A stretch of DNA of 64,000 nucleotides from Strigamia acuminata (lineage: Eukaryota > Arthropoda > Chilopoda > Geophilomorpha > Linotaeniidae). The notes beneath the pieces are model-generated. The model worked only from the letters and a program-made list of their open reading frames with translations. It had not been told where the DNA came from and made no database searches. The DNA is taken from the NCBI GenBank assembly GCA_949358305.1, contig OX442315.1:33816427-33880426 (forward strand), given 5' to 3'. How positions within the stretch are numbered: position 1 is the stretch's first letter; each line of letters opens with the position of its first letter. Position numbers and translations under genes: made by a program. Positions 14,991 through 39,578 of this stretch are shown in pieces.

Positions 14991-15421
14991 AAAGGTACAC
15001 TCGGCGGTAGATATTATCCAGAGCGACGACGATTGAGACGAGACGATTTGAGACGTAGACGAGACTAGACGAGGCGATTTGAGACGTAGACGAGACGAGG
15101 CGATTTGAGACGTAGACGAGACGAGACAAGACGAGGCGATTCGAGACGAAGACGAAGACGAGAAGAAAAGGAGACGATTGCGAAACAAAGAAAAGACAAG
15201 CGATGGTGCAACAAGACCTACACAAGGCGTGAGTAACCGGGAAATTTAATTCAGGCCGCGGGCAGAAATTGGGCCACAAAAAGAAAATACGATTTAAGAC
15301 ACGAGAAAAACGAACAATTCGAACCAGGAAGAGAGAGGCGATTTGAGAACAGCACAATTGTGAAAAAAAAAAAAAATGAATAAACTTTATTGAGCAACAT
15401 TGCCGACCTGTGGGAGGAATT

Positions 15422-15687
15422 TGTTGGAGTTTACAGGCGCCAATGTTGCGTTTGTTGTTGATTGACAGGCACCAATGTTGCCATTGACCCCTAAGTATTA
15501 GGAACAGGACGTTGTGGACAAAGCAAGAAGAAACTTAGGGTCGTGAACTGTCACTGACCTTCTTGACCAACCAATAGGAGAGAGTTCTTTTGACCCCACA
15601 ACTGTATTTAACCCTCCCTTTTTGAAATAAAACTCACTTGTCATTTTTCACCGTTACAACGTGTGTCGTGTCGTTTAATTTACAACA
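15422..15687 (+). repeat. LTR 2 (shared middle LTR)
   Basis: 266 bp, matching LTRs 1 and 3. It serves as 3' LTR of the first unit and 5' LTR of the second, with no host sequence between units. Confidence 0.9.
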
Positions 15688-15832
15688 AATGGTAGCAGAG
15701 AGGACGGTTGGATCAAACGGCAAACAATGACTTTGAATTTTTATGCGTTGATGAATTGTTGAAAAAAGCGATTGTAACTAGAAGAATTTGCCAACCACGC
15801 GGAAATTTCGAGACGTAAAAAGAAGTGACGAG

Positions 15833-16732
15833 ATGACGACCAAAAAATACAATGTGTTCGCGCAGGTGGAGCTACTAGACGACAAAAACTATCTGTTGTG
15901 GTCCCGACGGATAAAAACGATTTTGAAGAGCCGGAAATTGTGGAAGAAGGTCATTTTGGCGGACGAGCCGCCACGTGGGAAAGCGGAAGATGCCAATTGC
16001 GCTGAAATGGAGAAGAAGTGGGACGAATGGGACGATGAAAATTCGGAGGCGATGGAGATTATCATCAACACGTTATCAGCGGAACAAGTATTACGCCATC
16101 AATCGGAAGAAAATGCAAAAGAACTATGGGCAAAAATTGAAAGCAGCATGGCGGCGAAAACAAAAAACCTCCAGTTAATGTGTAACATCAAATTATCGAG
16201 ATTCGAGATGACGAAAACGGAGACCGTGGACCAATATCTAAACCGCATTGAAGCACTACAAAATGAGAGTTTACAACTTGGGAAGGCGGTGGACGATCAC
16301 GATGTGCGATTCTTTGCGATGCAGGGGTTGCGAAGGGAATTTGACCAGAACGTTTTGGCGCTAGAACAGCGAGAAAACCTAACAATGCAACACATTCGAG
16401 ACACACTGAAATTAGCGGAAGACAGAAGGACGAAACGAGAAGACGAGGAGAAACCATCGGATGCTGCGTATAAATCGACAGTTAAACGGTACGAAAAGCG
16501 GTCGGACGAAAGAAGATGTTACAATTGTGACATGACCGGTCACATGGCCAGCGATTGCAGAAATCCGACGAAATGTTTCAACTGCCAAGGAACGGGGCAC
16601 AAAGCGACGAACTGCGCCCAACCGAGGCAGGGAAACAACCAAAGATATAACACACCAAAGGAAAGGACCTTGCGCGCATTTGTGAGTGAAAACAACGACG
16701 CGGAGAACGAAAACGACGGATGGCCGTACTAG
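15833..16732 (+). CDS. Copia-type Gag, copy 2
   Basis: Encodes the same 299 residues as the 14091 copy, with the same zinc knuckles and the same stop at the would-be protease junction. The identity shows a very recent duplication or gene conversion. Confidence 0.9.
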   Translation: MTTKKYNVFAQVELLDDKNYLLWSRRIKTILKSRKLWKKVILADEPPRGKAEDANCAEMEKKWDEWDDENSEAMEIIINTLSAEQVLRHQSEENAKELWAKIESSMAAKTKNLQLMCNIKLSRFEMTKTETVDQYLNRIEALQNESLQLGKAVDDHDVRFFAMQGLRREFDQNVLALEQRENLTMQHIRDTLKLAEDRRTKREDEEKPSDAAYKSTVKRYEKRSDERRCYNCDMTGHMASDCRNPTKCFNCQGTGHKATNCAQPRQGNNQRYNTPKERTLRAFVSENNDAENENDGWPY

Positions 16733-17163
16733 AAAGGTACACTCGGCGGTAGATATTATCCAGAGCGACGACGATTGAGACGAGACGATTTGAGACGTAG
16801 ACGAGACTAGACGAGGCGATTTGAGACGTAGACGAGACGAGGCGATTTGAGACGTAGACGAGACGAGACAAGACGAGGCGATTCGAGACGAAGACGAAGA
16901 CGAGAAGAAAAGGAGACGATTGCGAAACAAAGAAAAGACAAGCGATGGTGCAACAAGACCTACACAAGGCGTGAGTAACCGGGAAATTTAATTCAGGCCG
17001 CGGGCAGAAATTGGGCCACAAAAAGAAAATACGATTTAAGACACGAGAAAAACGAACAATTCGAACCAGGAAGAGAGAGGCGATTTGAGAACAGCACAAT
17101 TGTGAAAAAAAAAAAAAATGAATAAACTTTATTGAGCAACATTGCCGACCTGTGGGAGGAATT

Positions 17164-17429
17164 TGTTGGAGTTTACAGGCGCCAATGTTGCGTTTGTTGT
17201 TGATTGACAGGCACCAATGTTGCCATTGACCCCTAAGTATTAGGAACAGGACGTTGTGGACAAAGCAAGAAGAAACTTAGGGTCGTGAACTGTCACTGAC
17301 CTTCTTGACCAACCAATAGGAGAGAGTTCTTTTGACCCCACAACTGTATTTAACCCTCCCTTTTTGAAATAAAACTCACTTGTCATTTTTCACCGTTACA
17401 ACGTGTGTCGTGTCGTTTAATTTACAACA
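17164..17429 (+). repeat. LTR 3 of the Gag-only element
   Basis: 266 bp. It ends TTTACAACA and is followed directly by the target duplication GAACT. Confidence 0.9.
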
Positions 17430-17545
17430 GAACTAACACGTCGATATCTAATGCAATGCCGTGTCTCATACGCACTAACATTTCTCATTTATTGTACGAT
17501 CATGCAACATTATGACATTGCTTTGGTGAAAGTACATCGTCAACG
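17430..17545 (+). pseudogene. Unit A: inverted, decayed trypsin-exon fragment
   Basis: On the plus strand the sequence aligns with the trypsin exon of units B to D that encodes [11 protein letters not shown]...YDIALVKL, but it is frameshifted and has a stop before YDIALVK. Joined with 13629-13678 across the retroelement it restores the intron-exon junction, so the element inserted into this exon. Confidence 0.7.
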
Positions 17546-17589
17546 TAAATAAAAGGTAGAGTTACCGTATTGCAGTGACGTTTTGTAAT

Positions 17590-17831
17590 GTTCACCTTCA
17601 AAATTAATCTGAGATCCTGTGGGAAAAGTGTCAGTGATGGTTTGATCATCAATTTCTAAATCCTTTGCATTTCTGGGTGTTCTCGGCACAGTACAAGTGC
17701 ATTCTGTTAACAGAGACGGTAGATTATAAAATGAAATGTTTTACGTATTTTATAAAATATTATTTACCTACTCCCACTTGTTGACAACTAAGAAAAAAAA
17801 TTAAGAGAATTGAGTAGAATGAAAACCTCAT
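17590..17831 (-). pseudogene. Unit A: signal-peptide and first-sushi remnant
   Basis: The minus strand carries a signal exon (17768-17831; MRFSFYSILL start) and part of the first sushi exon, with VPRTPRN and FPTGSQINFE. It then diverges before the next conserved Cys and is not followed by the remaining domains. With the inverted trypsin piece and tail exon, this is the wreck of a factor B gene. Confidence 0.75.
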
Positions 17832-17834
17832 CTT

Positions 17835-18350
17835 GCTCCTGAAGTCTGATATAAAATTTCCAGTCGATTTTCACAAACTACGGAATTAAATTGTTCGTTG
17901 AAATCAACATTTTAAAAAATCTTAATTTGAGCTAACTGATAAAATCATTTAAATAAAAAAAACAAAAGAAATGAATAATAAATTATAATAAATAAAAGAA
18001 TATCTTAACTCGATAACAAAGTCTCTAGTACTAGTACAAGCAATAATACAAATAAATATATTTCATCTATAATTTCAGTTATCACTACCGTCATACCCCA
18101 AAAAATAAGCGGAATTATTATTCAGTACAACATGAACAAAAAATTGTTGTTTTTGCCTTAAAAACAATGTTTTAATTGATAAGTAATTTATACCAAATTG
18201 ACCATGTTAACAACAGATTAAATTAACCTGGCTCCATCTGTTAACATTAATGTCATATCCGTTCTTCTTTCCTCCATTGAAATTTAATAACAATGACAAC
18301 TCTGTAAACACTAAACTTGCCATAATATTAATGTAAACAATGTCCTGGCT
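17835..18350. other. Duplicated 5' flank of unit A
   Basis: Recognisably the same upstream sequence found before units B, C and D (AATAAATATA, ATAAGC and TTTGCCTTAAAAA motifs in the same order), but more diverged. No gene. Confidence 0.55.
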
Positions 18351-18626
18351 AGCAGGGAACAAACCTGGGTTTCAATTCCTCTAATTCTGCTTTCAGTTTC
18401 AGTTCCTTTAATTCGGCTTTGAATTTCAATAACAAATCGGCTTTGAGTTTCAATTCCTCTATTTCGCTTTTGAGTTTCAATCCCTCTAATTCGGCTTTGA
18501 GTTTCAATTTCTCTAATTTGGCTTTGAGTTTCAATTGCAAATCGACTTTGAGTTTCAATTGCAAATCGACTTTGAGTTTCAATTCCTCTATTTCGCTTTT
18601 GGGTTTGAGAGCAGGGAACAAACCTG
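18351..18626 (-). pseudogene. Tail-repeat fragment flanked by 17-bp direct repeats
   Basis: About 242 bp (18368-18609) encode on the minus strand KLKAELEELKLKSE-type repeats like the tails of units B and C, with no protease sequence attached. The fragment is bracketed by AGCAGGGAACAAACCTG at 18351-18367 and 18610-18626, resembling a target-site duplication. A frame of about 93 codons exists but lacks gene context. Confidence 0.65.
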
Positions 18627-19218: not shown

Positions 19219-22200
19219 TTAGGGGCGCAAAATGTGTGGTTCGCATTCATCTTTACAGCCCAGATCTGTTTCCGTTGGTTCCGCTTTGCATTTCAATTCC
19301 ATAAACTCAGCTTTGAGTTTCAATTCCTCAAAGTCGGCTTTGCATTTCAATTCCCTAAATTCAGCCTTGATTTTCAGTTCCTCTAATTCGGATTTGACAT
19401 TCACTAATTCGGATTGGAGTTCCTCTAATTCGGCTTTGAGTTTCAATTCCTCTAATTCGGCCTTGAGTTTCAATTTCTCTAATTCGGCTCTGAATTTCAA
19501 TTTCTCTATTTCGCTTTTGAGTTTCAATTCCTCTAATTCTGATTTCAGTTTCAATTCCTCAAATTCGGCTTTGAGTTTCAATTCCTCAAATTCGGCTTTG
19601 AGTTTCAATTCCTCAAACTGCTCTTTAGGTTTGTAGCCTTGATCTTTTTCTATTGATTTCCCCTTGAATCTTAATTCCTCAAATTCCTCTTTAGTTTCAT
19701 CGTTGATCCATTGTCGCAATCTAGCCACATGAGTATAATAGCCGTAGAAGCCTTTCTGACCACATCCAACGCCCCAACTGACAACTCCGATCGAAAACCA
19801 CCTGGTCGTGTTTCCGTATGTCCCTTCGCTGTACGCTTCTTGCATTAACGGTCCTCCGTCGTCCCCATTGCAGGCATCAACGTCGCCAAGCCCAGTTCCG
19901 GCGCAAATCATTCTCTCAGTTGGCTAAAAAAGAAAAAAAAATGACAGCAAATTATTATTGTCGAATTAATTCTAACCATACAAATATTTGATGTTGGTGG
20001 CACACGCGGTGTTCGCATTCTACGTAGTTAACTGGTTCGTAACAAATGTGCGGTGGTTGAAGTGGCACGACCGCTTCGTTGAGGTAATCCACTGATTTTC
20101 CCGCTTTCGTTTCATTTACAATTTGGGGTGTTTCGTACCCCCAACCAATAACAGTCGCGAAATCTTTAGGAGCGTATAAGGATTTCTCGTTTAGTATCTC
20201 TAAAAAGCAAAAATTGTGAATATTCAGTAAGTTGGCAATACGAGTTGTCGTCACTGTGATCACCTTCATATATCGGTGGTAAGCAAATTGGTCGAATAAA
20301 ATAATCGTATACTAAAGGATTTGTAAGTTTCACCAAAGCGATGTCGTAATCCACTGTTTCGGGATGGTACAATGGATGAGATATGATAGAGAGTATGGAA
20401 CATGGCATTGCACTAGCTATAGAGACGTTGGTCCTTCCTTTGAAGTAAAAATGAAAAAAGCGTTAACTGCATAGTCCAACAGTTTCCGTAGGGTTAAAAA
20501 AAATTATTTTGACAATTTAATCCTTACCAACAATTAATTGCCAATTTCTTGGATCCGATTTTACGGTCTGATCCTTTCCAGGATTACCATTAAAGCAATG
20601 TGCCGCTGATAAGACCCATTGTCTGTGTATAATGACACCTCCACAGTAAACCTACAAATTAATGTCTCGTGTGTAAAATTATAGCGCCCGTTTATTCTTC
20701 CTTACCCCTTCAGGAGCATCATTGACTTTGTAGAGCGGAAGGGGTTGCAGTTTAAATGCCGCCATCCACGGCCATGATCCAACCACTTTTCGTTTGCCAG
20801 CTACTTTTGCGTACATTGCGGATGATGCTCTTATTAATCTTGTTTTAGCCGGCAAAGCTGAGTCCATATTGTACAGGGGTCGCTCCATTCCGCACGGAGA
20901 AAAATCTAAAAAAATCAATTCAAACACTCGAGATATTTGCAGTTCAACTTTACCAATTTACCAATTTGAGTTCCAATTGCATTCTCAACAATTTCCAACA
21001 GTTTGTTGTGGTTTTCGAACAGATAAACTTCCTTAGAAATTTCAGCCAGTATTTTTTTATCGTTTTTTTTGCCAACAGCGATGGCATAGATTTCACTGCT
21101 GTAACGTCTAGCCAATGTTGTAGCCATTTCTGTCGGGATTCCTCCTTCCGTGATCATTCCATCGCTAAGTAAGAAAATAATCGATTTGGCATTTCTCCTA
21201 TCCCCCCGTCTTCCGGCTACAATTGCGCTAAAAGCTCTTTCATAAGCTTTCCGTATATTTGTTCCTTTTCCTTTAAACAAATCAATAGTTAAAATAAAAT
21301 GTATAGTCAATTATTATGGTCAATCGTCTACCGTCATGCTGAATTGAATCTATGTAGTCAAGAGCAACTGTAACATCCTGGATGTTCGTAGCAAAGATAT
21401 CTTTTGCCTCGGAGCTGAAACTTATTACCGCGGCACGGACACCGTTGGAGTGAGAGGAAATTCCAACCTTACAAAACACATACAGTTAAATAATTGAATA
21501 TTGAAAATGGTGTAGAAATCACTAACGTACGTATCGTATAACCATTTTTATAAATTGTTTAGACTTGTTAAATTGCAGTTCACTAATGCTGCCAGAGGCA
21601 TCCAGAAGAAATACTAAATTTACTCCTCTATTCTCCATGGCTGTTCGAGAAACTATTGTCATTGTTTTATCCAGAGAAGCAGCAACTTCTTCGTAATCGC
21701 TGTATTCATTTCTGCCTATACATTCATAATTCTTTATTAAATGAGCAATTGTTTTTCAATACCGGTACATGATGTTTTTTTTTATATACCATAGCACTGG
21801 ACTTCCTTTCCCGACCAAACTCCACCTTCTAGACACGTTCTTTTAGGATTTCCAAACATTACGCAACCATGTTTGCAGGAATAAATAACAGAATCTCCAA
21901 TATTAAAATCGTCCCCTTGTCTATAACTATTGACAGGAAGTCCAGGATTGGGACAATCAGTACCTGCGAATCAAATTTTGAAAAAATTAAAAATAAAATC
22001 ATTATCATATTCTCAACACCTCCTGCATCGCAGACTGTTGTTACTCCACTCCAACGTCCATTTTCCAAGCATGTTCGAACAGTTGAACCAATTAATTGAA
22101 ATCCAGCCATACAGCTAAAAGATACTTCTTTTCCAACTGTAAATTCGTCTCCGTTTTGATTACCGTGGACGGGATTTCCAGGATCGGCACACGTAATAGC

Positions 22201-22644
22201 CTTAAAGATTTACCGTTAGGCTAAAAATCGATCGTTAGCAAATTACAGCTTACGAATGCAATTTGGTATTTCATGTTCCCAAACATTGCCAACGCACGTA
22301 GTGAAATACAATCCATTCTAATGAAATAAAATACAATTTATAGTGCTACTGCCGTGAATCTTTCTCATGTTTTTAAACATACTAGAATAAAAAATCCTTT
22401 ATCACATTCAAAATTAATCTGAGATCCTATGGGAAAACTGTCAGTTGTTTGATGTTCAATTTCTAAAATTTTTCCATTTCTGGGTATTCTCGGCACCGGA
22501 CAAGGACCATTGCCTGCCGAAAGCACAATAAATGCTATTAACAGAAACGGTTATACAATAATTATAGAATAATCATGTACCTGCTTCAACCTGTTGACAA
22601 TTAAGTATTAAAAGAAAGAGTATTGAGTAGAATAAAAACATCAT
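19219..22644 (-). CDS. C2/Bf: Unit B: C2/factor B-like protein, catalytically dead, with helical tail; possible pseudogene
   Basis: Thirteen exons (5' to 3': 22581-22644, 22383-22513, 22254-22317, 22020-22200, 21790-21963, 21531-21715, 21332-21467, 20962-21270, 20706-20905, 20528-20651, 20264-20437, 19982-20199, 19219-19923) encode a signal peptide, three sushi domains, a VWA domain (MIDAS DASGS, SDG) and a trypsin domain. His (LSAAHC) and Asp (DYDIALVK) are present, but the catalytic Ser motif reads GDDGGP, so proteolysis should be lost. After the domain come about 13 repeats of KLKAELEE type and a conserved end. Factor B normally forms the alternative-pathway C3 convertase. Oddity: the second-sushi acceptor is shifted by one base (AAAG to AAGG), which would add a base and break the frame. 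Confidence 0.8.
19260..19640 (-). repeat. Repeat encoding the tail of unit B
   Basis: Tandem 27-bp units (nine codons, KLKAELEEL) with diverged outer copies, mirrored on the plus strand as TTCAATTCCTCTAATTCGGC. Fewer units than in unit C. Confidence 0.85.
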
Positions 22645-23290
22645 CTTGCTCTCAATTATCAAGCAGCTAATGAAATAAAATGCCCAGTCGATTTTCAAAA
22701 TCTACGCAATTAAATTATTCATGAAAATCAACATTTTGGAAATTCCGTAATTTGAGCAAATTGATAAATACATTAATCTCTATAATGAAGATCATATTAC
22801 AATTTATCAGCAATAATAAATATAAATATACTGTATTTACTTTATAATTCCAGTAATTCGTACCGTAAATACTTCCAAATAATAAGCCGAATGTACAATT
22901 ACGTATGAAAAATGTTATCTTTGCCTTAAAAATAGTTTTAATTGTAAACACTCAATATGACCTAAAAGATAAAGACAAATCTTCTCCTTTAAGCAGAGGG
23001 GTCGTGGTGTTTCATTCGTAATATCTGGAACATTTGGAACGATCAAATTTCTTAAATTTCACAAGTCTGGAGATTGTGATTAAACGAGTATAATGTACAA
23101 ATTTGATATTATTGCCGATACATTGTGACGTAACGACTTGTATGGCTTTTTTTTCTTTAAGGACTTCACAAAATTTGATTTAGAAACATAAACATACCTA
23201 TTATAAAGTTTTCTTTTCTTTCTGCCGCGCTTTTCAGCATAGCTCAAGAAATACCTCAGAAAAGCCCCATGCCGCAGCAATAAACCGACT
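22645..23290. promoter_or_regulatory. Conserved upstream region of unit B
   Basis: About 650 bp before the start codon recur, recognisably, before unit C (split by a copia) and before unit D, and partly before unit A. They therefore belong to the duplicated unit and presumably hold the promoter. No specific site is claimed. Confidence 0.5.
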
Positions 23291-23389
23291 GAAAATAAAT
23301 CACTCTGTTTTCATGTTTTACTGCATGCGTGTTTATTGACATCGCTCCGTAATGGAGCCATCATATCATCCATTATTATTGACCCATCA

Positions 23390-23640
23390 GTATTCCAAGT
23401 GTTTCTGCCCAGAATAATTTTAACTTCTTGACAGATTTATATTTTGAAAATCATTTTGCGAAATTCCCGCTTAAAATACTTTTTCAACGTAGAGGGATTA
23501 CGAAATCAGCAGAAATCCTTGAGAAGACAAACCCGGGTTACCGGTATGTAAACTTTCATGGTGCAACGAGGGGTATTAAATATATCAGTTATGAATTATT
23601 TGTATTTAGATTAAAATAAAATTTAAAATTATACAAACGT
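23390..23640 (+). pseudogene. PHPT1 intron 2/exon 3 fragment
   Basis: Matches PHPT1 from inside intron 2 (CTGCCCAGAATAATTTTAAC) through exon 3 and its 3' flank, with small deletions: the GGATACGGCAAAGCC start is lost. It lies 3' of unit C just as true PHPT1 lies 3' of unit A. Confidence 0.8.
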
Positions 23641-23681
23641 ATTTTGAGCAAAAAAAAATTAAGCAATTGGAATAAATTCAT

Positions 23682-26600
23682 TCAGGGACGCAAAATTTGT
23701 GGTTCGCATTCATATTCATCTTTGCAGCCCAGATCTGTTTCCGTTGGTTCCGCTTTGCATTTCAATTCCATAAACTCAGCTTTTAGTTTCAATTCCTCAA
23801 AGTCGGCTTTGTATTTCAATTCCCTAAATGCAGCCTTGATTTTCAGTTCCTCTAATTCGGATTTGACATTCACTAATTCGGATTGGAGTTCCTCTAATTC
23901 GGCTTTGAGTTTCAATTCCTCTAATTCGGCTTTGAGTTTCAATTTCTCTAATTCGGATTTGACATTCACTAATTCGGATTTGACATTCACTAATTCGGAT
24001 TGGAGTTCCTCTAATTCGGCTTTGAGTTTCAATTCCTCTAATTCGGCTTTGAGTTTCAATTTCTCTAATTCGGATTTGACATTCACTAATTCGGATTGGA
24101 GTTTCTCTAATTCGGCTTTGAGTTTCAATTCCTCTAATTCGGCTTTGAGTTTCACTTTCTCTAATTCGGCTTTGAGTTTCAATTTCTCTAATTCGGATTT
24201 GACATTCACTAATTCGGATTGGAGTTTCTCTAATTCGGCTTTTAGTTTCAATTCCTCTAATTCGGCTTTGAGTTTCAATTCCTCTAATTCGGCTTTGAGT
24301 TTCAATTTCTCTAATTCGGATTTGACATTCACTAATTCGGATTTGACATTCACTAATTCGGATTGGAGTTTCTCTAATTCGGCTTTGAGTTTCAATTCCT
24401 CTAATTCGGCTTTGAGTTTCAATTCCTCTAATTCGGCTTTGAGTTTCAATTTCTCTAATTCGGATTTGACATTCACTAATTCGGATTGGAGTTTCTCTAA
24501 TTCGGCTTTGAGTTTCAATTCCTCTAATTCGGCTTTGAGTTTCACTTTCTCTAATTCGGCTTTGAGTTTCAATTCTTCTAATTCGGCTTTGAGTTTCAAT
24601 TTCTCTAATTCGGCTTTGAGTTTCAATTCCTCTACTTCGGGTCTGAGTTTCAATTCCTCTATTTCGCTCTTGAGTTTCAATTCCACTAATTCTGCTTTCA
24701 GTTTCAATTCCTCTAATTCGGCTTTGAGTTTCAATTCCAAATCGGCTTTGAGTTTCAATTCCAAATCGGCTTTGAGTTTCAATTCCTCTATTTCGCTTTT
24801 GAGTTTCAATTCCTCTAATTCGGCTTTGAGTTTCAATTCCTCAAATTGCTCTTTAGTTTTGTAGCCCTCATCTTTTTCTATTGATTTCCCCTTGAATCTT
24901 AATTCCTCAAATTCCTCTTTAGTTTGATTGTTGATCCATTGTCGCAATCTAGCCACATGAGTATAATAGCCGTAATAACCTTTCTGACCACATCCCACGC
25001 CCCAACTGACAATTCCGATCGAAAACCACCTGGTCGTGTTTCCGAATTTTCCTTCGCTGTACGCTTCTTGCATTAACGGTCCTCCGCCGTCCCCTTTGCA
25101 AGCATCAACGTCGCCAAGTCCAGTTCCGGCGCAAATCATTCTCTGTTGGCTAGAAAAGAAAAAAAAATTAAAACAAATTATTGTCATGTAGTTATTTTTC
25201 TCATCATACAATTCTGTGTTGTAGTTCGCAAACGCGGTGTTCGCATTCTACGTAGTTAACTGGTTCGTAACAAATGTGCGGTGGTTGAAGTGGCACGACC
25301 GCTTCGTTGAGGTAATCCACTGATTTTCCCGCTTTCGTTTCATTCACAGTTTGGCGCGGGTCGTACCCCCAACCAATAATAGTCGCGGGATCTTTAGGAG
25401 CGTATAAGGATTTCTTGTTTAGTATCTCTAAAAAGCAAAAGAATGTGAATACCGGTATTCGCAGTCAGTAAGTTGGCAATACGAGTTGTTGTCACCTTCG
25501 TATATCGGTGGTAAGCAAATTGGTCGAATAAAATAATCGTATATTAAAGGATTAGTAAGTTTCACCAAAGCGATGTCGTAATCCACTGTTCCGGGATGGT
25601 ACAATCGATGATATATGATGCTACGTATACGATATAGCATTGCACTAGCTATAGAGACGTTGGTCCTTCCTTTCAAGTAAAATAGAAAAAAAGCTTTAAC
25701 TGCATAGTCCAACAGTTTATTTTGTCAATTTAATCCTTACCAACAATTAATTGCCAATTTCTTGGATCCGATTTTACGGTCTGATCCAATCCAGGATTAC
25801 CATTAAAGCAATGTGCCGCTGATAAGACCCATTGTCTGTGTATAATGACACCTCCACAGTAAACCTACAAATTAATGTCTCGTGTGTAAAATTATAGCGC
25901 TCGTTTATTCTTCCTTACCCCTTTAGGAGCATCATTGACTTTGTATTGCGGAAGGGGTTGCAGTTTAAATGCCGCCATCCACGGCCACGATCCAACCACT
26001 TTTCGTTTGCCAGCTACTTTTGCGTACATTGCGGATGATGCTCTTGTTAATCTTGCATTAGCCGGCAAAGCTGACTTCACATGGTACAGGGGTCGTTCAA
26101 TTCCGCAGAGAGAATAATCTAGCAAAATATTGTTTAAACACTCGAGCTGCTTGCAGTTCAACTTTACGCGCGTACCAGTTTGTGTTCCAATTGCACTCTC
26201 AACAATTTTTAAAAATTTGTGGTGGTTTTCAAACATAAAAAACTCTATAGAAATCTCGGCCAATACATATTTAGCGTAGTTTTTACCAACAGCAATAGCA
26301 TAAATTTCAGTGTTGTACCCCTCCGCCCATATTTTTGCCAAATCTGTTGGGATTCTTCCTTCCGTAATTATTCCATCGCTAATTAAGAAAATAATCGATT
26401 TGGCATCTTTCCTGTACCCTTGTGTTTCGATTTGAATTAAGTAAGCAGCTCTTAAATAAGCTTTCCATATATTTGTTCCGTTTCCTTTAAACAAAATAAT
26501 AGTTAAAATAATACAAGTATAAATAGTCAATTAATAAATGAGAAAATTGAGGATTCTGTGTGTGCACTCATTTTGGTTGCTCCGTAACAGAGCAACCGGT

Positions 26601-28011
26601 TTCATTCACATTTAATTTTGATACTCAATATTATGGTAAACCCTTTACCACCATGCTTAATTGAATCTATGTAGTCAAAAGCAACCGTAACATTCCTGAC
26701 GTTTAAAGTAAAGATGTCTTTTGCTTCAGAGCTGAAACTTATTACCGCGGCACGGACACCGTTGACGTGAGAGGAAATTCCAACCTATTAAACACACGTA
26801 GAGTGTTAAATTATTGAAAACATGATGTAAAAATTACTGGCTTACCTTTTGGATAACCATCTTTATAAACTGTTTAGTTTTATTAAATTGCAGTTCACTA
26901 ATACTACCGGACACGTCCAAAAGGAATAATACATTTACGCTTCCATTCATTTCAACTTGTAGAGAAAATGGATTGCCCACGTGATAATTTATCGCCGTTT
27001 TCTCCATGGCTGTTCGCGAAATTATTGTCGTTGTCTTATCCAGGAAAGCTGCTACCTCCTCGTAATCGCTGTATTCATTTATTCCTACATGCGTACGTGT
27101 ATATATATTTTTTAATGAATTAGCAATTGCTTTTTAACACTAGATCTTTTTTTTATTTCTACCATAACACTGGATTTCCTTTCCAGACCAAACTCCACTT
27201 TCTAGACATGTTCTCGTAGCATTACCAAACATCACGCAACCAGGTTTGCAAGAATAAATAACATAATCTCCAATATTAAAATCATCCCCTTTTCTGTTAC
27301 TATTGACAGGAATTCCAGGATTAAGGCAATCAGTATCTGTGAAACAAATTTAAAAAAAAATTTAAAAATAAAATAATTTATGTTCACATTACCTCCTGCA
27401 TCGCAAACTGTGGTTTCTCCACTCCATCGTCCATTTTCCAGGCATATTCGAACAGATGAACCGATTAATTGATATCCAGACATGCAGCTAAAAGACACAA
27501 CCTTTCCTACCTCAAATTCATCTCCGTGTCGATTACCGTGGAGAGGTTTTCCAGGATCGGCACATTTAATAGCTTTAAAAATTCGCTCTAAGTCTAAAAC
27601 AAGATGGTTAGCAATTTATGGCTTACGAATGCAATCTGGTATTCCATCCTTCCAGTCATTGCCCGTGCATGTTGTGAAATACCTCCCATTCTAATCAAAG
27701 TAATTAAATAGAGATATTGCACTGAAGTCTTCTCGTGCTACTGGATATACTTCTATAAAGAATCCTTCATCACATTCAAAATTAATCTCAGATCCTATGG
27801 GAAAAGTGTCAGTTGTTTGATGTTCAATTTCTAAAACTTTTCCATTTCTGGGTATTCTCGGCACAGGACAAAGACCATCAGCTGCCGAAAGCACAATAAA
27901 TTCTATTACCAGAAACGGTTATAGAATAATTATACAATAATATGTACCTGCTTCAAGCTGTTGACAATTAAGAATTAAAATAAAGACTATTGAGTAGAAT
28001 AAAAACATCAT
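23682..28011 (-). CDS. C2/Bf: Unit C: C2/factor B-like protein, catalytically dead, about 375-residue helical tail
   Basis: Exons 27948-28011, 27751-27881, 27627-27690, 27393-27572, 27163-27336, 26846-27084, 26649-26784, 26176-26484, 25919-26118, 25741-25864, 25496-25669, 25210-25427 and a last exon ending at 23682. Domains are signal peptide, three sushi, VWA (DVSGS, SDG) and trypsin with His and Asp kept, but the Ser motif reads GDGGGP (Ser to Gly). The last exon has lost 2 bases in a GAGA run at its start. Using the next AG (exon 23682-25142) restores the frame and gives 1157 residues. The tail is a long run of nine-residue KLKAELEEL units interrupted by seven-residue LVNVKSE units. Otherwise intact; expression is unknown. 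Confidence 0.82.
23760..24850 (-). repeat. 27/21-bp coding minisatellite, tail of unit C
   Basis: Around 35 nine-codon units plus about ten seven-codon units with TTGACATTCACTAATTCGGA (plus strand). Homogeneous, implying recent expansion. Frame is kept because both unit lengths are multiples of three. Confidence 0.9.
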
Positions 28012-28493: not shown

Positions 28494-28730
28494 AATGGTA
28501 GCAGAGAGGAAGGTTGAACACACATTGAAGAAAAACGGTATTGAGACCGAAATTTGAGCAACACCGCGCCATCTTGAAGAGCACGATACGAGACGACAAG
28601 AAACAACTTTAACAAAGACTGTGAGCAACAATTCGATTCGAGGTGAATTAAACAATATTGAGATTGTGCCACAGAACCGAGACGGAGGAAAAAGTTGAAC
28701 AATACGTGCAAATTGAGACAACCAACAAAG

Positions 28731-31700
28731 ATGAGCGACACCGGTAATTGGAGTTTGGCTAACATTGAGCCACTAAATGATGCGAATTATTTCCTATGGG
28801 AATCGAGAGTGGAGGGAATCCTCAGAGCCAAGAAATTGTGGAAAGAAGTAATAGTTGGAGCCGAACCGCAGCGAGGAGTCCAAGGAGAAGCGGATTTTGA
28901 CGCAAAAGAGAAAACTTGGAACGATTGGGACGATAAAAACGCGGCGGCCCACTTCACGATGATCAGTACAATGACTGCACCACAAGTCTTGAAGTACTCA
29001 AACACAAAAGGTGCAAAGGCACTTTGGGACCTGGTAAAAACCAACATGGCGGCAAAAACCCAAGAGTTACAAATGAGGAGTGCCTGCGAGCTAACACAGC
29101 TGAAAATGAACAGCAAAGAGGATGTGGACACCTACATGAACAGGGCCGAAGCAATAATCAACCGCTGTGCAAAACTTGGCAAAAATATAGACGACTACGA
29201 GTGCAAGTTTTACGTGACGAAAGGATTGCGGAGAGAATTTGACGCGAATGTGCGCGCAATTGAAGTGCAGGCGAATTTAGACATGTCAAAAATTCGTGAC
29301 ATATTAAAAATGGAGGAAGGTCGAATTTCAACTAGAAAAGAAGAGAAAAATACGACAACAAACGAGGCTGCACTAAAAACACGAGAGAAGGGACAAAAGC
29401 CAAAGCGCACATGCTTCAACTGTGGCCGTGGAGGGCACATGGCAAGAGAATGCTACAGTGAGGCAAAATGTTACAACTGCCAGGAGTTTGGCCACTTATC
29501 GAAAGATTGTTCGAAACCGAAACGAGAATTTAAAAGTGGCGACTCAAGAGGACGTGGTCGAGGCAGAGGCAATCAGCGAGGTCGCGGCAGAGGAAAAAGC
29601 GAATTATCAATGATGGCGTACGAGGAAAAGCCTGAGTTCACACTCATGACGTACGAGATGGATGAAAACACCAATGATGAAGAGACGAATGAAGAACCAA
29701 ATGAAGAAAACGATTGGGTGTTGGATTCCGGAGCGACAAGCCACATGACGGCGCTGGATGCAAAACATTTCGACACATTTGATGAGGATGAAAAGAATAT
29801 CGGAATGGCGAAGAAAGGCAAAAGTATGAAGTCAATTGGAATGGGCGAGATTGTGCTCGAACACGCTGAAAAAAATTCCAGATTGAAGAAAGTGTTGTGC
29901 GTGCCGCAAATTGGAAGCAATTTGTTGTCAGTATCGAAAATTGTCGATAATGGACTAAAAGTCACATTCTCCAAAACGAGCGCAACAATTGATGATGAAA
30001 ATGGAGAACAAGTTATGATGGTGCCAAGAAAGGGAGACATGTTTGTGTTGAAGGCAAACATAAAAGAAAAAGAGAAGTCTTATAAAGCAGAGGAAAAAGA
30101 CAACAATTGGCACGTGAGATTGGGACATTTAAATTACAACACCCTGAGAGAGATGAAAAATGAAGAACTAGCATATGGCATAGAAATTAGCAGCAAAGGT
30201 GGCGCCGTGTGTGAACCATGCATTGCGGGAAAGATGAAAAAGTCGTCGCACAAATCGGTAACAGACCGACAATCGTCCAGCATTATGGAATTGTGGCACA
30301 TTGATTTAATTGGACCAATTGGACCCGAATCTCGAGGAGGTGCAAACTATATAATGACTGTAGTAGACGATTGGAGTAGGATGTTGATGATAAAAACTTT
30401 AAATGCAAAAAGCGACGCGAGAGAGAAGTTGACAGAACTAATCACCTGCATGGAGAGACAGACCGACAAGAAGCTGAAGAAATTAAGGAGCGACAATGGC
30501 GGCGAGTTCTTGTCCAAAAGTATGAAAGAATGGACGACAAAGAGGGGCATCGAGCATCAGCTGACCACAGCATTTAATCCGGCTAGCAATGGTGTCGCGG
30601 AACGTGCAAACCGGACAATACTTGAGATGTTGAGAGCAATATTAAAAGATTGCAAACTGCCAAAGACGTTTTGGGCGGAGTGCGTATCGACAGTGGCGCA
30701 CATCCGCAACAGGTGCAAATCGTCAGTCCATGGACGCACACCATTTGAGATATGGTTTGGGAGAAAACCAAATTTGAAATACTTGAGAAGATTTGGATGT
30801 GTAGCATATGTGCTAATTAAGGACCACAAGCGAAAGAAATTGGATCCCAAAGCAGAAAAAGCAATATTCATTGGATACTCGAATACAAGGAAGGCGTACC
30901 GAATTTATCACCCGGAAAACGATTCGATTAGTGAAGAAATTGATGTAAAATTTGACGAGAGTAAAACGGGCGCAGATTTGCTGAATGGAGAAATTAAAGA
31001 TGATGAAGAGATTGAGACAGTCAAAATCGATCTGAACTGCGAAGAAAATGAAGACGAATCAGACGATGCCGAGGATGAAGAGCAAAACGAGATAAATGAA
31101 GAAGAAGATGAAACAAATGAACCAGAGGACAACGCGGAAGAAAATGACGCACAAGATGAACGTGACGAACCACCACGGAGGGGGAGACCAGCAGGGGTGA
31201 CCAGGGAAATGAAGTTGGTCGCCGACAAAGTGCAAAGAGAAGAACACGAGAAGAGACTGGTTGACCAGGGAGCGCGAAGATCAGAGAGAATTAAGGCAAA
31301 ACAAATGGCATTACTAGTAGAAGAAATCTTAACGCCGAAAAATTTCCACGAAGCAACAAACTCCCATCACGCGACAGACTGGAAGGCCGCGATGGATGAC
31401 GAGATGAGCTCGATGAAACAACACGGAGTGTGGAAAATTGGAAAATTGCCAAAAGGAAAGAAGGCGGTGAAATCCAAGTGGGTTTATAAAGTGAAGTTAA
31501 ATTCCGAGGGGGAACCGGAAAGATTCCGAGCAAGACTAGTAGCCACTGGATACTCGCAGAAATTCGGGGACGATTACGAGATGACCTTTGCCCCGGTTAT
31601 ACGAATAGAGACTCTCAGAATGCTGATTAATGTAGCAGCAAAAATTAACCGACCATTGAAACAACATGACGTCAAAGCCGCATATCTTCACGACAAGCTG

Positions 31701-32873
31701 AAGGAGATGATATTTATGATACAGCCAGAAGGATATGTTGAAGGAGGAAAAGGACATGTTTGTCAACTAATTAAGAGCATCTATGGATTAAAACAGGCAG
31801 GGAGATGTTGGTTTGAAATGTTGGATAAGACATTGAAGAAAATTGGATTCAAACCATCACCAGAAGACCCATGCCTTTATGTGATTTTTATTGATGGCAA
31901 CTTTATGTTTCTAGGCGTGTACGTGGACGACGACCTGTCCTTGGCATCCACGGATGAATTTGAGACGGAACTAATGTCAAAAATGAAAGAAGAAATAGAA
32001 TTCGTGAGCATAGGCAGACTGGAATACATTTTAGGAATCCAGGTGGAATACAAAAATGGAAGAATCAACATCCACCAAGGCGGATACATAAAAAGATTGG
32101 TGGAGAGCGAGGGATTGGAAGAATGCAATGCGGCAATAACCCCAGTGAACCCCAATCAAAACTTGGACGAATTTGACGAAAGCGAAAAAGTTGATGCAAC
32201 ACAGTACCAGGAACTGCTGGGCAAGATGATGTACCTTGCCACACACACGAGGCCAGACCTGAGTTTCCCGATGAGCCTGTTATCTCAGTATAACAAGGAC
32301 CCACGAAAGATCCATTTTACCGCATTGAAGCGCGTGCTAAGATACTTGAAGGGGACAATCGAATACAAGTTGAATTACGGAAGGGAAGAGAGCCACATCC
32401 ACGGCTACTCAGACGCGAGCTGGGACCGGACGGCGAACGCACGATCGTTTTCGGGATTTATTGCGATGGACGGGAATTCGATCATTAACTGGAAGTGCCA
32501 GAAACAAGCGATAGTCGCGATGTCGAGTACAGAGAGTGAGCTCTTGGCGCTGACCGAAGGAGTGCGAGAATTAATTTGGTTGAATCAACTCGCGATTGGA
32601 CTAAATGGAGAAATCGATGACGGAAATACCACAACAATGCACTGTGACAGTTTGAACGCGGTGAAACTGTTGCGAGGCGGTGCACAAAAGACGAGAACCA
32701 AGCACTTAAATCGCAAAGTGCATTTCATCAAACAAGAGATCGAGGATGGAAACGTTATCGTGGAACATGTCCCAAGCGAGGACATGTTGGCGGACTTTTT
32801 AACGAAGCCTTTAGCCGGACCTGCACTAAACGGAATACTAGAAGCATTAGGACTAAAGACTGTGGGGGAATAA
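28731..32873 (+). CDS. Copia Gag-Pol polyprotein
   Basis: One 1380-residue frame from the first ATG. In order: UBN2-type Gag; two CCHC knuckles near residues 228 and 247; protease motif LDSGATSHM near 330; GAG-pre-integrase HVRLGH...CEPC near 457; integrase with [15 protein letters not shown] and NGVAERANR (D, D, E; about 523, 587, 620); an acidic linker; copia reverse transcriptase with the YVDDD active site near 1064; and RNase H with SDASWD, STESE and DSLNA. The integrase-before-RT order defines Ty1/copia. No stop or frameshift is seen. Its Gag is homologous to, but clearly distinct from, the Gag-only element, and the LTRs differ, so it is a related family rather than the direct parent. 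Confidence 0.95.
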
Positions 32874-33728: not shown

Positions 33729-36700
33729 TCAGGGGCGGTAAATTTGTGGGTCGCATTCTTCTTCGCAACCCGGATCTTCTTCTATTGGATCATCTTTAAA
33801 TCTTAATTCCTCAAATTCCTCTTTAGTTTCGTCGTTGATCCATTGTCGCAATCTAGCCACGTGAGTATAATAGCCGTAGAAGCCTTTCTGACCACATCCC
33901 ACGCCCCAACTGACAACTCCGATCGAAAACCACCTGGTCGTGTTTCCGTATTTCCCTTCGCTGTACGCTTCCTGCATTAACGGTCCTCCGCTGTCCCCTT
34001 GGCAGGCATCTACGCCGCCAAGCCCAGTTCCGGCGCAAATCATTCTCTCTGTTGGCTAGAAAAGAAAAGAAAAAATTAAAACAAATTATTATCATCGAGT
34101 TATTTTTCTCCCCATACAATTTTCTGTTGTTGTTCGCACACGCGGTGTTTGCGATCGCATTCTACGTAGTTAACTGGTTCGTGACAAATTTGCGATGGTT
34201 GAAGCGGAAGATCCGCTTCGTTGAGATAATCGACTGATTTTCCCTTCGTTTCATTCACAGTTTGGAGTATTTCGTACCCCCAACCAATAACAGTTGCTGT
34301 TTCTTTCGGAACATACAGTGGCTTTGTGTTTTGTATTTCTAAAAGCAAAAATTGTGTATTTTGTAAGCTGCAATACAAATTATCGTTGCAGTAATTACCT
34401 TCGTATGTGGGTGGTAAGCAAATAGGACGAATGAAATAATCGTATATTAAAGGATTAGTAAGTTTCACCAAAGCGATGTCGTAATCCACTGTTCCGGGAT
34501 GGTACAATGGATGAGATATGATGCTACGTATGGGACATGGCATTGCACTAGCTATAGAGACGTTGGTCCTTCCTTTCAAGTAAAAATGAAAAAAGCTTTA
34601 ACAGTTTCTGTAGGGTTAAAAAAATTATTTTGACAATTTAATCCTTACCAACAATTAATTGCCAATTTCTTGGATCCGATTTTACGGTCTGATCCTTTCC
34701 AGGATTACCATTAAAGCAATGTGCCGCTGATAAGACCCATTGTCTGTGTATAATGACACCTCCACAGGAAACCTACAAATTAATGAGATCAAATTATTGA
34801 AACCCCCAAATTAATTGAAAAATTACCCAAATCTATTTAATTGCACACTAATTATTTACACACTATTTTTATTTATCGCTTCATCACATTTGTCCCCAGT
34901 TATGGTTACAAACCAGAGACGAGTGTACGTTTGTCGGTAGGTATCGAATCGGTGCCAATTTTGAAGTTTGGTCTGCCTCAAGTATGTGTCAATGTCTGGT
35001 TCACGCACATTGGTTTGGTTCGTGGGCGTAATGAAATAAAATTTCTGATTACCCCTAAGACGAGTCTTGACACACGGCTTCGATGCTTGCCAGTTGTATG
35101 CTTCGGTTATTAACTTCAATGTATGGGTTGGTTGTAGAGCAAATAATTTAGCATTGACGGTGTCTGGTCTTCGCTCTAAGGACCAATCAGCCACCATTCG
35201 CTTCATAACTTCCATGAACCTATTAAGGGGGAGCCGATCTCTCAAAGTGTAATGTGACTTTATGACATTATTGGTTGACTCCAGACCATTGTTTGTGCAA
35301 GGAGAGCCCAGACAATGACCAATACGCTTAAACGTGCTAAAAACGTCGAAAACGTCATAAAAACGTTCATAAAACGGCAAAAACGTCTTGTAAATGTTTC
35401 CAGGGAAAAAAAAGGAATTTGGGGGTTTGGTTCAATGATAGGGGACAAACTCAACATGTGCGCAATTAAATATTTCAGGTGTTTTGGAAAATATAAATAG
35501 GGGGTCGATAAATACAACCCCAAATTAATGTCTCGTGTTTAAAATTATAGCGCCCGTTTATTCTTCCTTACCCCTTCAGGAGGATCATTGACTCTGTAGA
35601 GCGGAAGGGGTTGCAGTTTAAATGCCGCCATCCACGGCCACGATCCAACCACTTTCTTTCCACCAGCAATTTTAGCAACCATTGTGGATGATGCTCTCGT
35701 CAATTTTGTATTAGCCGGCAAAGCTGAGTCCACATTGTACAGGGGTCGCTCCATTCCGCACGGAGAAAAGTCTAAAAAAAATCAATTCAAACACTCGAGA
35801 TATTTGCAGTTCAACTTTACCAATTTACCAATTTGAGTTCCAATTGCATTCTCAACAATTTCCAACAGTATATTGTGGTTTTCGAACATAAAAACGTCCT
35901 TAGAAATTTCAGCCAGTATTTTTTTATCGTTTTTTTTGCCAACAGCGATGGCATAGATTTCACTGCTGTAACGTCTAGCCAATGTTGTAGCCATGTCTGT
36001 CGGGATTCCTCCTTCCGTGATCATTCCATCGCTCATTAAGAAAATAATCGATTTGGCATTTGTCCTATCCCCCTGTGTTCCGGCTACAATTGCGCTACCA
36101 GCTCTTGTATAAGCTTTCTGTATATTTGTTCCTTTTCCTTTAAATAAAACGATGGTTAAATTAATATACAGGGTGTCCCAAAAGTCTTAACCCTCCTAAA
36201 TATTTCGTGAGCAATTACATCTTAGCCAACTTTGATGAAGCGATCGTATAGGAAGTTGGGTGAGAGAAATCCAATAATGTCATCAAATTTGACCTTGAAG
36301 GCTACTTTCAAGGTCATTCACTTGCTAACATCTAAACCAATCAGGTGAGAGCAAAATTTCCAATTACAAGGTTGTAGAGCACCATCTAATTAGTCTAGAA
36401 CTGTTCTTAAAAAAATTATTTCTTTCTGAAAAGTTTTGAGAAAAAAAAGTTTGAAATGTTAGTCTACTCAGCTTTGTAATCTAAAACTATCATGTGGAAT
36501 GTATTTCAAAAATAAACTATTTCCTTTCTTTTGTGTTTCCTCTCTTCTACTTACAAGTATGACCCAATAAAGTGTCCTAATTGAGGATTAGCTTGGTTGA
36601 TTCAATAGTTTTAAGTTACAAAACTGAGTTACAAAGCTGAGTAGACCAATGTTTCAAACCTTTTTTTCTCAAAACTTTTCAGTAAGAAATAATTTTTTTA

Positions 36701-39578
36701 AGAACAGTTCAAGACTAATTAGATGGTTCTCTACAACTTTGTAATTGAAAATTTTTCTCTAATCTGATTGGTTTAAAAGTTAGCAAGTAAATGACCTTGA
36801 AAATGGCCTTCAAGGTCAAATTTGATGACATCATTGGATTGCTCTCACCCAACTTCCTATACGATATCTCGCAATTGTTCACAAAATATTTAGGGGGGCT
36901 AAGACTTTTGGGACACCCTGTATATAGTCAATTATTATGGTTTACCATCATGCTGAATTGAATCTATGTAGTCAAGAGCAACTGTAACATCCTGGATGTT
37001 CGTAGCAAAGATATCTTTTGCCTCGGAGCTGAAACTTATTACCGCGGCACGGACACCGTTCGAGTGAGAGGAAATTCCAACCTTATAAAACACATACAGT
37101 TAAATAATTGAATATTGAAAATGGTGTAGAAGTCACTAACGTACTTTTCGTATAACCATTTTTATAAATTGTTTAGACTTATTAAATTGCAGTTTACTAA
37201 TGCTGCCAGACACATCCAGAAGAAATACTAAATTTACTCCTCCATTCGTTTCCTCTGGTACAGAAAATGAATTGCGCATGAGGAGATTTCTTGCCGGCGT
37301 CCCCAAGGCTGTTCGAGAAACTAATGTCATTGATTCATCCAGAGAAGCAGCTATCTCTTCGTAATAACTGTATTCATTTATGCCTGCATACGTATATTTT
37401 TTAAATGAGCAATTGTACATGATGTTTTTTTTATATACCATAGCACTGGACCTCCTTTCCTGACCAAACTCCACCTTCTAGACACGTTCTGTTAGGCTTT
37501 CCAAACATTACGCAACCATGTTTGCAGGAATAAATAACAGAATCTCCAATATTAAAATCGTCCCCCTGTCTATTACTATTGACAGGAAGTCCAGGATTGG
37601 GACAATCAGTACCTGCGAATCAAATTTTGAAAAAATTAAAAATAAAATCATTATCATATTTATTCTCATCACCTCCGGCATCGCAGACTGTTGTTGCTCC
37701 ACTCCAACGTCCATTTTCCAAGCATGTTCGAACAGTTGAACCAATTAATTGGAATCCAGCCATACAGCTAAAAGATACCTCTTTTCCAACTGTAAATTCG
37801 TCTCCGTTTCGATTACCGTGGACGGGATTTCCAGGATCGGCACATGTAATAGCTTTAAAGATTTACCGTTAGGCTAAAAATCGATCGTTAGCAAATCACC
37901 GCTTACGAATGCAATCTGGTATTTCATGTTCCCAAACATCGCCAATGCACGTAGTAAAATACAATCCATTCTAATGAAATAAAATACAATTTATAATGCT
38001 ACTGCCATGGAGTTTTCTTATGTTTTTAGACATACTGGCATAAAAAATCCTTTATCACATTCAAAATTAATCTGAGATCCCACGGCAAAACTAGTAATGA
38101 TGTTATCATCAATTTCTACGACTTTTCCATTTTTTGGTTTCCTCGGCCTAGTGCAAGGATCAGTAGCTGCCGAAAGTAAAAAGCAATGTGTGTACCTTAT
38201 GTAACAGATTTTAAATTTATCGCTTACGCAAACATTGCGGTAACTTGACATCCCAATCCCCATCGTCCTCGCAGACTAAAGAAAAACTGTCGTCATCGCT
38301 CGTGTAGTATTTTGGGCAACCAAAATCCACTTGATCTCCAGCAAGAAATATATCTGGATGCTGGCGTTCACTCGATTCAATCACTAAATTATTTTCAGGT
38401 GGAGGAGATCTGCACGAAGCGACACCAACAGCTGAAACGTTTTGAAAATTTAACAGTAAAAAAAACCAACACCATGAAGCAATTAAAAATATTTACGTTT
38501 GCATATTGGTTTTGGCGCACTCCAACGAGTATTTCCGAGACATTTGATCCTATTTGCCATCCTTCGGTTCAAAGCTTCGTAACCTTTATCACAAACATAT
38601 TCAATGACTGAACCTTCATAAAACGTCGTCCCATTGTTTAATCTCTGGCTAAAAGCAGCTACACCTGGATCCTGACATTTTGGAATATCTGTACGACGAA
38701 GAAAATTACGATACCGGTAACCATTTTTAGCTTTCAATTTCTTACGAAACTTACGTTCACAGTAAGGCAATGTTCCGTCCCAATCACCATAGTTATCACA
38801 TCTTAAGTTAACTTCACCGATTAAACGGAAATGTTTTGGACAAGAAAAGGTATAAACCTCGTTATTTAAACAGCATTTCTTTTCATATACTAAATGGGCA
38901 ATGTCTGGTTTCTTGCATTGTGGACGTTCTGTAAATTTTCCAAAATAAAATAGAAAAAATTACAATGTACAAATTTAATATTAATTTATTAGTTTCTTAC
39001 CTATACATTTAGGGGGTCTGGTAGGGACATTATACGCGCCTTTACTGTTCAGTTTACATTGAGAAACAGTTGGGCCTCGTAATCTAAAACCAAAATCACA
39101 AGAATATTCAATGGTATCGTTTTTAAGAATAGCATTGCCATTTTTAGGTTTCACCACAGGACACGGCTTTTCTGTAAATAAAAATTAAATATGTACAAAT
39201 GTGAGTTAAATTTTGAACCAATTCTATTTACTCGAACAACGAAAAGGTATTGACAATCTTGACCTATCTTCCAGAAGTACTTTCCACCTGTTATCTAAGC
39301 AAATAACGAAAGAGTCTCCGCCATTGATAGTAGGTTCATAGCCAAAATCGCAATTAAAAATCAGCATTGTATTCTCCGCCAGCATTCGTTTGTTTGCTTG
39401 TCCAGCAGGGTAAGTGATAATCACATTTGGCGAAGGCGATGGTTTTTTGCATTCTATTTACAGAAAATGTTATAAAATAAATAGACCGACTTATTTTATG
39501 GAATAATTATTTACCTGCTTCGACCTGTTGACAATTAAGAAAGAAAGTAAAAAGAATTGCAAGAAATAAAAACCTCAT
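33729..39578 (-). CDS. C2/Bf: Unit D: intact C2/factor B, eight sushi domains, active-site complete
   Basis: Eighteen exons sum to 1101 codons plus stop: 39515-39578, 39232-39453, 39001-39171, 38755-38928, 38497-38688, 38228-38431, 38036-38166, 37907-37970, 37673-37852, 37439-37612, 37145-37383, 36946-37081, 35829-36137, 35572-35771, 34649-34772, 34399-34572, 34118-34338, 33729-34055. Signal peptide ([10 protein letters not shown]), eight sushi domains (about 22-525), VWA with MIDAS DVSGS near 582 and SDG, then a trypsin domain starting KVVGSWPW, with His near 838, DYDIALVK and GDSGGP (Ser near 1015). Asp six residues before Ser predicts trypsin-like cleavage. It ends in a short acidic tail without the repeats of B and C. 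Factor B is the secreted protease subunit of the C3 convertase. Introns host a MULE fragment and a foldback element. Confidence 0.92.
34786..35521 (-). mobile_element. Truncated MULE (Mutator-like) element in an intron of unit D
   Basis: Flanked by a perfect 9-bp duplication AAATTAATG (34777-34785, 35522-35530), typical of Mutator. The ends share an inverted segment around CTATTTAATTGCACAC. Units B and C have the uninterrupted intron. Only the C-terminal part of a transposase remains. Confidence 0.8.
34856..35380 (-). pseudogene. MULE transposase C-terminal fragment
   Basis: An open frame of about 174 codons holds [13 protein letters not shown] and a following [13 protein letters not shown] segment, characteristic of the end of MULE transposases (the E of the DDE triad region). 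The N-terminal catalytic part is absent, so this is not a functional enzyme. Confidence 0.75.
36169..36920. mobile_element. 752-bp foldback element with about 340-bp TIRs, intron of unit D
   Basis: Ends CAGGGTGTCCCAAAAGTCTTA and its complement, with TA (or TATA) on both flanks. The two halves are inverted copies for about 340 bp each, leaving a short spacer near 36540-36590. Absent from the same intron in B and C. No ORF. It is a mariner-like non-autonomous element by its TA target; family not certain. Confidence 0.85.

Follow-up and report, generated by a model that had tools for sequence, protein, structure and literature searches.

The window, a 64,000-nucleotide stretch of the Strigamia acuminata genome (contig OX442315.1; G000:C3:33816427-33880426, where C3 is the name of the contig), contains a cluster of complement factor B paralogues, two of which, units B and C, have lost the catalytic serine of the protease domain and gained a long charged repeat tail. 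On balance, we favour the reading that B and C represent a class of factor B pseudoenzymes, probably translated at one time, that these copies are now most likely decaying, and that a third paralogue, unit D, alone supplies factor B activity. Both the past translation and the present loss of function are what we infer from the sequences, lesions, mosaicism and rate estimates set out below.

Unit B (19219..22644) and unit C (23682..28011), both on the minus strand, are each described by a 13-exon model, constructed, like the other exon models, by homology and the GT-AG rule; that of B runs to 887 codons, provided that exon 4 is spliced at its own GG acceptor. Both models comprise a signal peptide (judged by eye), three sushi domains, a VWA domain and a trypsin domain, in the order of factor B/C2; the domains of C and D were delineated by alignment, and those of B by Pfam (Sushi, three times, VWA and Trypsin). 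Unit D (33729..39578, minus strand) is an intact long-form factor B gene of 18 exons and 1,101 residues with no tail. The best PDB matches spanning the sushi, VWA and protease parts of the D model are to complement factor B (2xwb, E-value 2.6e-52, query residues 84-724); complement receptor 1 scores higher, albeit through the sushi repeats only.

The active-site motif reads GDDGGP in B (19849-19866), GDGGGP in C (25077-25094) and GDSGGP in D (33981-33998), and the codon at the Ser195 position is GAC (Asp; 19858..19860), GGC (Gly; 25086..25088) and AGC (Ser; 33990..33992), respectively, all on the minus strand. The His-Asp-Ser triad is complete in D, whereas it is incomplete, at Ser195, in both B and C. 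All three proteins retain His57, Asp102, Asp189, Gly193, Asp194 and Ser214, as well as all five residues (DxSxS, Thr and Asp) of the metal-ion-dependent adhesion site (MIDAS) of the VWA domain. B and C each possess an S1 domain in which the catalytic Ser is replaced and the remainder of the site is kept, as in a serine protease homologue (SPH). A first-pass annotation of this DNA had proposed the three motifs, the retention of the triad His and Asp and of the VWA metal site, and the membership of B and C in the factor B family with loss of the Ser and gain of a tail; the alignment, the domain order and the codons bear all of this out. In the linker before the VWA domain, which in human factor B holds the factor D cleavage site, no Arg-Lys was found at the aligned place in D, and exon 6 of B (21531..21715, minus strand) is shorter, in frame, by 54 nucleotides than its counterparts in C and D.

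The genome searched comprises 237.5 Mb in 157 contigs, and only the best candidates were scored, such that small degenerate pieces may escape. With an exon of C and the Strigamia maritima protein T1J787 as queries, two places for the family were located on contig C3 and, with 70 kb around the second of these analysed, seven factor B units are found in two clusters: A to D in the window, and E to G some 0.3 Mb away. Motif scans and tblastn put B, C and D on the minus strand; E, F and G are on the plus strand. Unit A (17426..18612) is a tailed copy reduced to a broken remnant, with exon-1, exon-2 and tail pieces on the minus strand and an exon-11 piece on the plus strand. E and F are near-identical tandem copies that keep the Ser and have no tail, and G combines GDGGGP with a tail. 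The E/F pair (G000:C3:33478800-33490900) is spaced by about 7.7 kb, the individual exons of the 12 compared being 93-100% identical, and is evidently a recent duplication, postdating the exon-5 damage common to the two copies.

The tail occurs without the Ser in all three tailed copies that retain the protease exon (B, C and G), and the Ser without the tail in the other three (D, E and F); the earlier claim that tails are confined to Ser-less copies holds not only for B and C versus D but also for E, F and G. Tails common to all copies are ruled out, since D, E and F have none. The B tail, searched against the whole genome, has 40 matches, of which those on contig C3 are B, C, G and remnant A, and the remainder, on contigs C1 and C6, are repeats of 28-37% identity. 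D, E and F have AGC as the catalytic codon; C and G have GGC, and B has GAC. Most simply, the loss of the Ser would represent one common AGC>GGC step, with a further change to GAC in B; independent loss in B and C was rejected, as GGC in C and G together with GAC in B fit this first step followed by one extra. The joint segregation of Ser loss and tail would most simply reflect a single historical event rather than three.

The tail arrays, at 19279..19617 in B (about 113 residues, KLKAELEE type) and 23748..24847 in C (about 366 residues), both on the minus strand, have a period of 27 nucleotides, encoding the nine-residue unit ELEELKLKA; the repeat lengths are 339 nucleotides in B, 1,098 in C, 306 in G and about 244 in A. 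The C-terminal end reads EEFEELRFK... in D and VEFENLTFK...SCVDKCDPQILRP in T1J787, and in B and C, the array is inserted between the two C-terminal motifs of D/T1J787 and reaches the ancestral C-terminus in frame; G is arranged likewise, with diverging last residues. This placement suggests that EEFEELRFK, which is single in D, was probably the seed from which the array expanded. For the last exon of B alone, supplied as a single sequence, AlphaFold2 predicts one helix over residues 100-214, with a mean predicted local distance difference test (pLDDT) score of 66 overall and of 88-96 in the blocks over residues 111-200, although a sequence so rich in Glu, Lys and Leu is readily called helix. 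A heptad coiled coil is rejected by the periodicity: the repeat is of nine residues, and in the C tail, the hydrophobic amplitude is 0.10 at 102.9 degrees and 0.19 at 100 degrees, with a two-face term of 0.31 at 100 degrees. Nine residues correspond to a 180-degree turn per repeat, and hydrophobic side-chains would thus be presented on two opposite faces, with no heptad stripe.

The first intron of a simple D model holds five further exons that splice in frame, giving the long form with a single terminal stop. These exons, N1-N5 (38228..39453, minus strand), encode Cys-rich and sushi-like sequence that aligns with the N-terminal part of T1J787, and they are absent from B and C, where the signal exon joins exon 2 over an intron of 67 (B) or 66 (C) nucleotides. 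No lesion was seen in the D gene model. By exon-by-exon comparison, unit B is a mosaic: its exons 1-2 are C-like (93.8% and 90.1% identity to C, versus 78.1% and 76.3% to D), exons 3-8 are D-like (90.3-98.5% to D, versus 76.6-87.4% to C), exon 9 is mixed (92.0% to C and 88.5% to D), and exons 10-12 are identical to those of G. Gene conversion, or else unequal exchange, has evidently rearranged the cluster.

Each of the tailed copies with a protease exon carries at least one lesion besides the loss of the Ser. In B, GT is found at every one of the 12 donors, and AG at 11 of the 12 acceptors; the acceptor of exon 4 is GG (22200..22201, minus strand), and the change from AAAG in D to AAGG in B indicates that the natural AG has been lost. 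Use of the AG one base upstream would bring a stop after 99 residues, and the other in-frame acceptors within exon 4, the first at offset 51, would cut the second sushi domain. In C, all 12 donors and all 12 acceptors conform, and exon 13 starts CCAACAGAGAATG (25137..25149, minus strand), two nucleotides (AG) shorter than in D, where the counterpart is CCAACAGAGAGAATG; with the conserved exon-13 acceptor, the frame is shifted and a stop follows after 685 residues, upstream of the active-site motif. In G, a long terminal repeat (LTR) element splits exon 2 and the MIDAS is incomplete, one Ser being lost. Additionally, in both E and F, exon 5 has 173 rather than 174 nucleotides, which shifts the frame, and a MIDAS Ser is replaced by Arg; there are also stop-containing exons upstream of F.

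The substitution rates of six copies were estimated by maximum likelihood under a codon model, with our own script rather than PAML, for exons 3-8 (367 codons) and for the tail-free part of exons 9-13, here the protease part (327 codons); exons 1-2 lie outside the analysis, exon 2 of G being interrupted, and the trees, drawn manually on the basis of exon identity, are blurred by gene conversion. For the B and C tips together, the ratio of non-synonymous to synonymous rates (dN/dS; ω) is 0.76 in exons 3-8 and 0.99 in the protease part. In the dN/dS check suggested by the first-pass annotation, the B and C tips are thus indistinguishable from ω = 1 (summed twice the log-likelihood difference, 2ΔlnL, 0.76; not significant), but nor are they clearly distinguishable from the other branches (summed 2ΔlnL 5.42 versus one ratio, 2 degrees of freedom, p = 0.067). 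For B alone, ω is 1.06 in exons 3-8 and at the upper bound in the protease part, where there is no synonymous change (2ΔlnL 7.42 versus one ratio, p = 0.024, and 2.72 versus ω = 1). When G is added to B and C, together with the BG branch in the protease tree, ω is 1.16 and 0.81 over a background of 0.42 and 0.38 (2ΔlnL 18.8 versus one ratio and 1.09 versus ω = 1), most of the value of 18.8 coming from G, for which ω is 7.4 and 2ΔlnL 18.5 when it is taken by itself in exons 3-8. On the D tip, ω is below 1 (0.40 and 0.32; 2ΔlnL 8.49, p = 0.014), and on E, F and their stem it is 1.26 and 0.55. The rates of the Ser-less copies are compatible with neutrality, but the power for C is low.

Taken together, the lesions and the lack of clear constraint indicate that the tailed copies are most likely decaying, and the avoidance of stops in the tail frame, described below, that members of the class were probably translated in the past. 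We envisage an ancestral copy that, in whatever order, lost five N-terminal exons, exchanged its catalytic Ser for Gly and expanded a C-terminal 27-nucleotide seed in frame into a charged helical tail. This copy would have been duplicated to yield B, C, G and remnant A; through gene conversion or unequal exchange, a D-like copy would have donated exons 3-8 to B, and exons 10-12 would have become common to B and G. The tailed copy was probably translated for a time as a factor B pseudoenzyme, after which splice, frame or insertion lesions would have accumulated in its descendants, with D remaining as the sole supplier of factor B activity. If the copies are indeed decaying, the factor B locus is an example of turnover in which gene conversion, the loss of exons and the growth of a tail all take part; it also carries a warning that the loss of an active site should not be read as a new function before the splice sites have been checked.

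A number of observations weigh against this reading. The lesions of B and C each have a possible in-frame escape: skipping of exon 4 in B leaves an 827-residue frame, and a CAG 7 nucleotides downstream, if used as the acceptor of exon 13 in C, gives an in-frame product of 1,157 residues. No in-frame stop is present in the exons of B, nor in those of C when read from this downstream acceptor. The lesions in E and F, which keep the Ser, imply that decay is not particular to the Ser-less class, and the estimates for C alone (ω of 0.65 and 0.79) fit neutrality and the background about equally. Moreover, had the copies been neutral throughout, 1.8, 4.1 and 3.0 stops would be expected in B, C and G, respectively, and none is observed in the compared codons (P = 0.17, 0.02 and 0.05), which argues against decay over the whole of their history.

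The alternative that survives best, although we consider it unlikely, is that B, C or both are working pseudoenzymes, made from an in-frame mRNA through exon-4 skipping or the downstream CAG, respectively: the sushi and VWA domains would bind C3b with Mg2+, C3 would not be cleaved, the tail would anchor or assemble the protein, and the convertase would be damped or scaffolded. The retained MIDAS, His57, Asp102, Asp189 and Ser214, the stop-free tail frame, the stop-free exons of B and C and the helix predicted for the B tail are all consistent with such a role. So, too, are two tandem C3-like genes (G000:C4:8292587-8305557), each consisting of an ANATO match followed by thioester-domain matches, which indicate that C3-like partners are probably present; no NTR-domain matches were adjacent to them in the genome search. 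Ser-less SPHs also serve as cofactors in arthropods, according to the excerpted parts of PMC4372372. Against this, B has a splice lesion and C a frameshift when the conserved splice sites are used, B and C together are without clear constraint, G is degenerate, and the protein searches found no conservation in a second species among the candidates scored, T1J787 being tail-less. As each of the three protease-bearing tailed copies has an extra lesion, and dN/dS is indistinguishable from 1 for B and C together and below 1 for D, the standing decoy or convertase inhibitor suggested by the first-pass annotation is not supported: possible, but unproven. Relaxed dN/dS accompanied by further lesions, which that annotation had itself set against the suggestion, is found in part, and in one assembly only.

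It is rather doubtful, on the same sequence evidence, that the tailed copies typify a frame-maintained pseudoenzyme class in geophilomorph centipedes, in which short Ser-less sushi-VWA proteins would bind C3b, carry a charged helix of 100-370 residues that is made from a nine-residue minisatellite and hydrophobic on two opposite faces, act as a competitive brake or scaffold for the alternative-pathway convertase and still be expressed by alternative splicing. If such a class does work, it would constitute a built-in dominant-negative factor B, an alternative-pathway regulator of a kind not found in our literature searches, and a natural case of a minisatellite converting a protease into a scaffold.

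We regard it as improbable that the lesions of B and C are confined to the sequenced haplotype, or errors of assembly, with the copies intact in the population: affecting one base in B and two in C, they are as small as a polymorphism or a consensus error, but G bears independent lesions, and single-site errors would not produce a domain-wide absence of clear constraint in B and C.

The case for past translation is drawn from the tail frame, which contains no stop in B, C, G or A, as compared with 7, 4, 4 and 0 stops, respectively, in the other low-stop frame. An open frame alone was rejected as proof of coding: over C, the plus strand (414 residues) and a second minus-strand frame (338 residues) are open too, so that the repeat itself accounts for part of the openness, and stop variants were, therefore, counted instead. 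In a strict count of single-change codons, taken over 49 units that match well and of which 30 are distinct, 28 of 81 types are present and none of the eight stop types (P = 0.028, or 0.029 when restricted to transversions); in the control frame, the same count finds one of five stop types (nine occurrences). Among codons with at most one difference, 43 of 81 types are seen and, again, none of the eight stop types (P = 0.011, binomial, or 0.0015, hypergeometric). Counted base by base, two of the eight stop-type bases do occur (four occurrences), in codons that have a second change and are not stops. The result depends on the counting rule, and the P-values assume that variant types are independent; we place most trust in the strict-count figure of about 0.03. 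Non-synonymous and synonymous variants of the tail are not separated (Fisher p = 0.25), and there is thus no sign of constraint on the tail amino acids themselves. Stop avoidance in this frame is, accordingly, no more than modest evidence of past coding. It is very unlikely that the tailed copies have lacked a function from the outset, with a tail that is just minisatellite growth in a dead duplicate and stayed open since the unit is divisible by three: the other open frames over C, the Fisher result and the base-wise stop-type variants would suit this, but the want of any actual stop in any tail, the strict count and the in-frame finish of the B and C arrays at the ancestral C-terminus all speak against it.

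Elsewhere in the window, a tandem array of 84-nucleotide period and 16.7 copies (3252-4662) has a unit that appears to encode a C2H2 zinc finger with an HTGEKPF linker. Beside remnant A, two identical stretches 1,742 nucleotides apart, with identical 191- and 232-residue frames, flank a short gag-like frame (14670-17276), and this is probably a young, shortened LTR element. Between C and D lies what is, by frame reading, a copia-type element with one open frame of 1,403 residues (28662-32873); sequence similar to its LTR end is found in exon 2 of G, on the same contig. D intron 7/8, in the numbering of the 13-exon model, contains an apparent non-autonomous element (36165-36922, ends approximate), with terminal inverted repeats starting TACAGGGTGTCCCAAAAG. 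On another contig, over G000:C1:35.35-38.37 Mb, trypsin matches at 35346208 (plus strand) and 38372648 (minus strand) and NTR matches at 35501894 (plus) and 38226387 (minus) are nearly mirror-symmetric, a pattern suggestive of an extensive inverted duplication or of a palindrome produced in assembly.

When tailed relatives were sought among protein sequences, with scoring of the approximately 8,000 candidates sharing most words (6,953 for a C query truncated to 820 residues), the searches returned a single close homologue, the tail-less T1J787 of Strigamia maritima, a 'C3/C5 convertase' (factor B). It shares 75% identity over 97% of a 780-residue D model and 66% over 90% of the C query, with the same domain order and GDSGGP. 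At 1,074 residues, T1J787 matches the long form of D, with equivalents of the five N-terminal exons, the Ser and no tail, and in these respects it is unlike B and C. Vertebrate complement factor B/C2 likewise differs from B and C, having Ser195 (GDSGGP in the D alignment), and is not known to carry a repeat tail. Parallels to the Ser-less copies come from other invertebrates. According to the excerpts of PMC4714745, Lox-FB of Loxosceles laeta and the similar Hasarius adansoni FB-3 and Ruditapes decussatus FB are factor B-like proteins that have two sushi domains and lack the catalytic triad; in Lox-FB, all three triad residues are lost and the MIDAS is conserved. Scolopendra FB-2 has two sushi domains. 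Lox-FB thus lost His, Asp and Ser, and B and C the Ser alone; those excerpts make no mention of a repeat tail for proteins of the Lox-FB type, unlike B and C. Among arthropod SPHs, PmMasSPH is an example in which the active-site Ser is changed to Gly, and these proteins are established cofactors; those treated in the excerpts of PMC4372372 have clip domains and act in prophenoloxidase activation, in contrast to the sushi-VWA architecture of B and C. No title or abstract found in our literature searches describes a tailed Ser-less factor B. The remark in the first-pass annotation that no description of the pairing of Ser loss and tail was known needs qualifying in one half and stands in the other: going by the same excerpts of PMC4714745, Ser-less, sushi-poor factor B is known in kind, from spiders and a bivalve, and the repeat tail is the new element.

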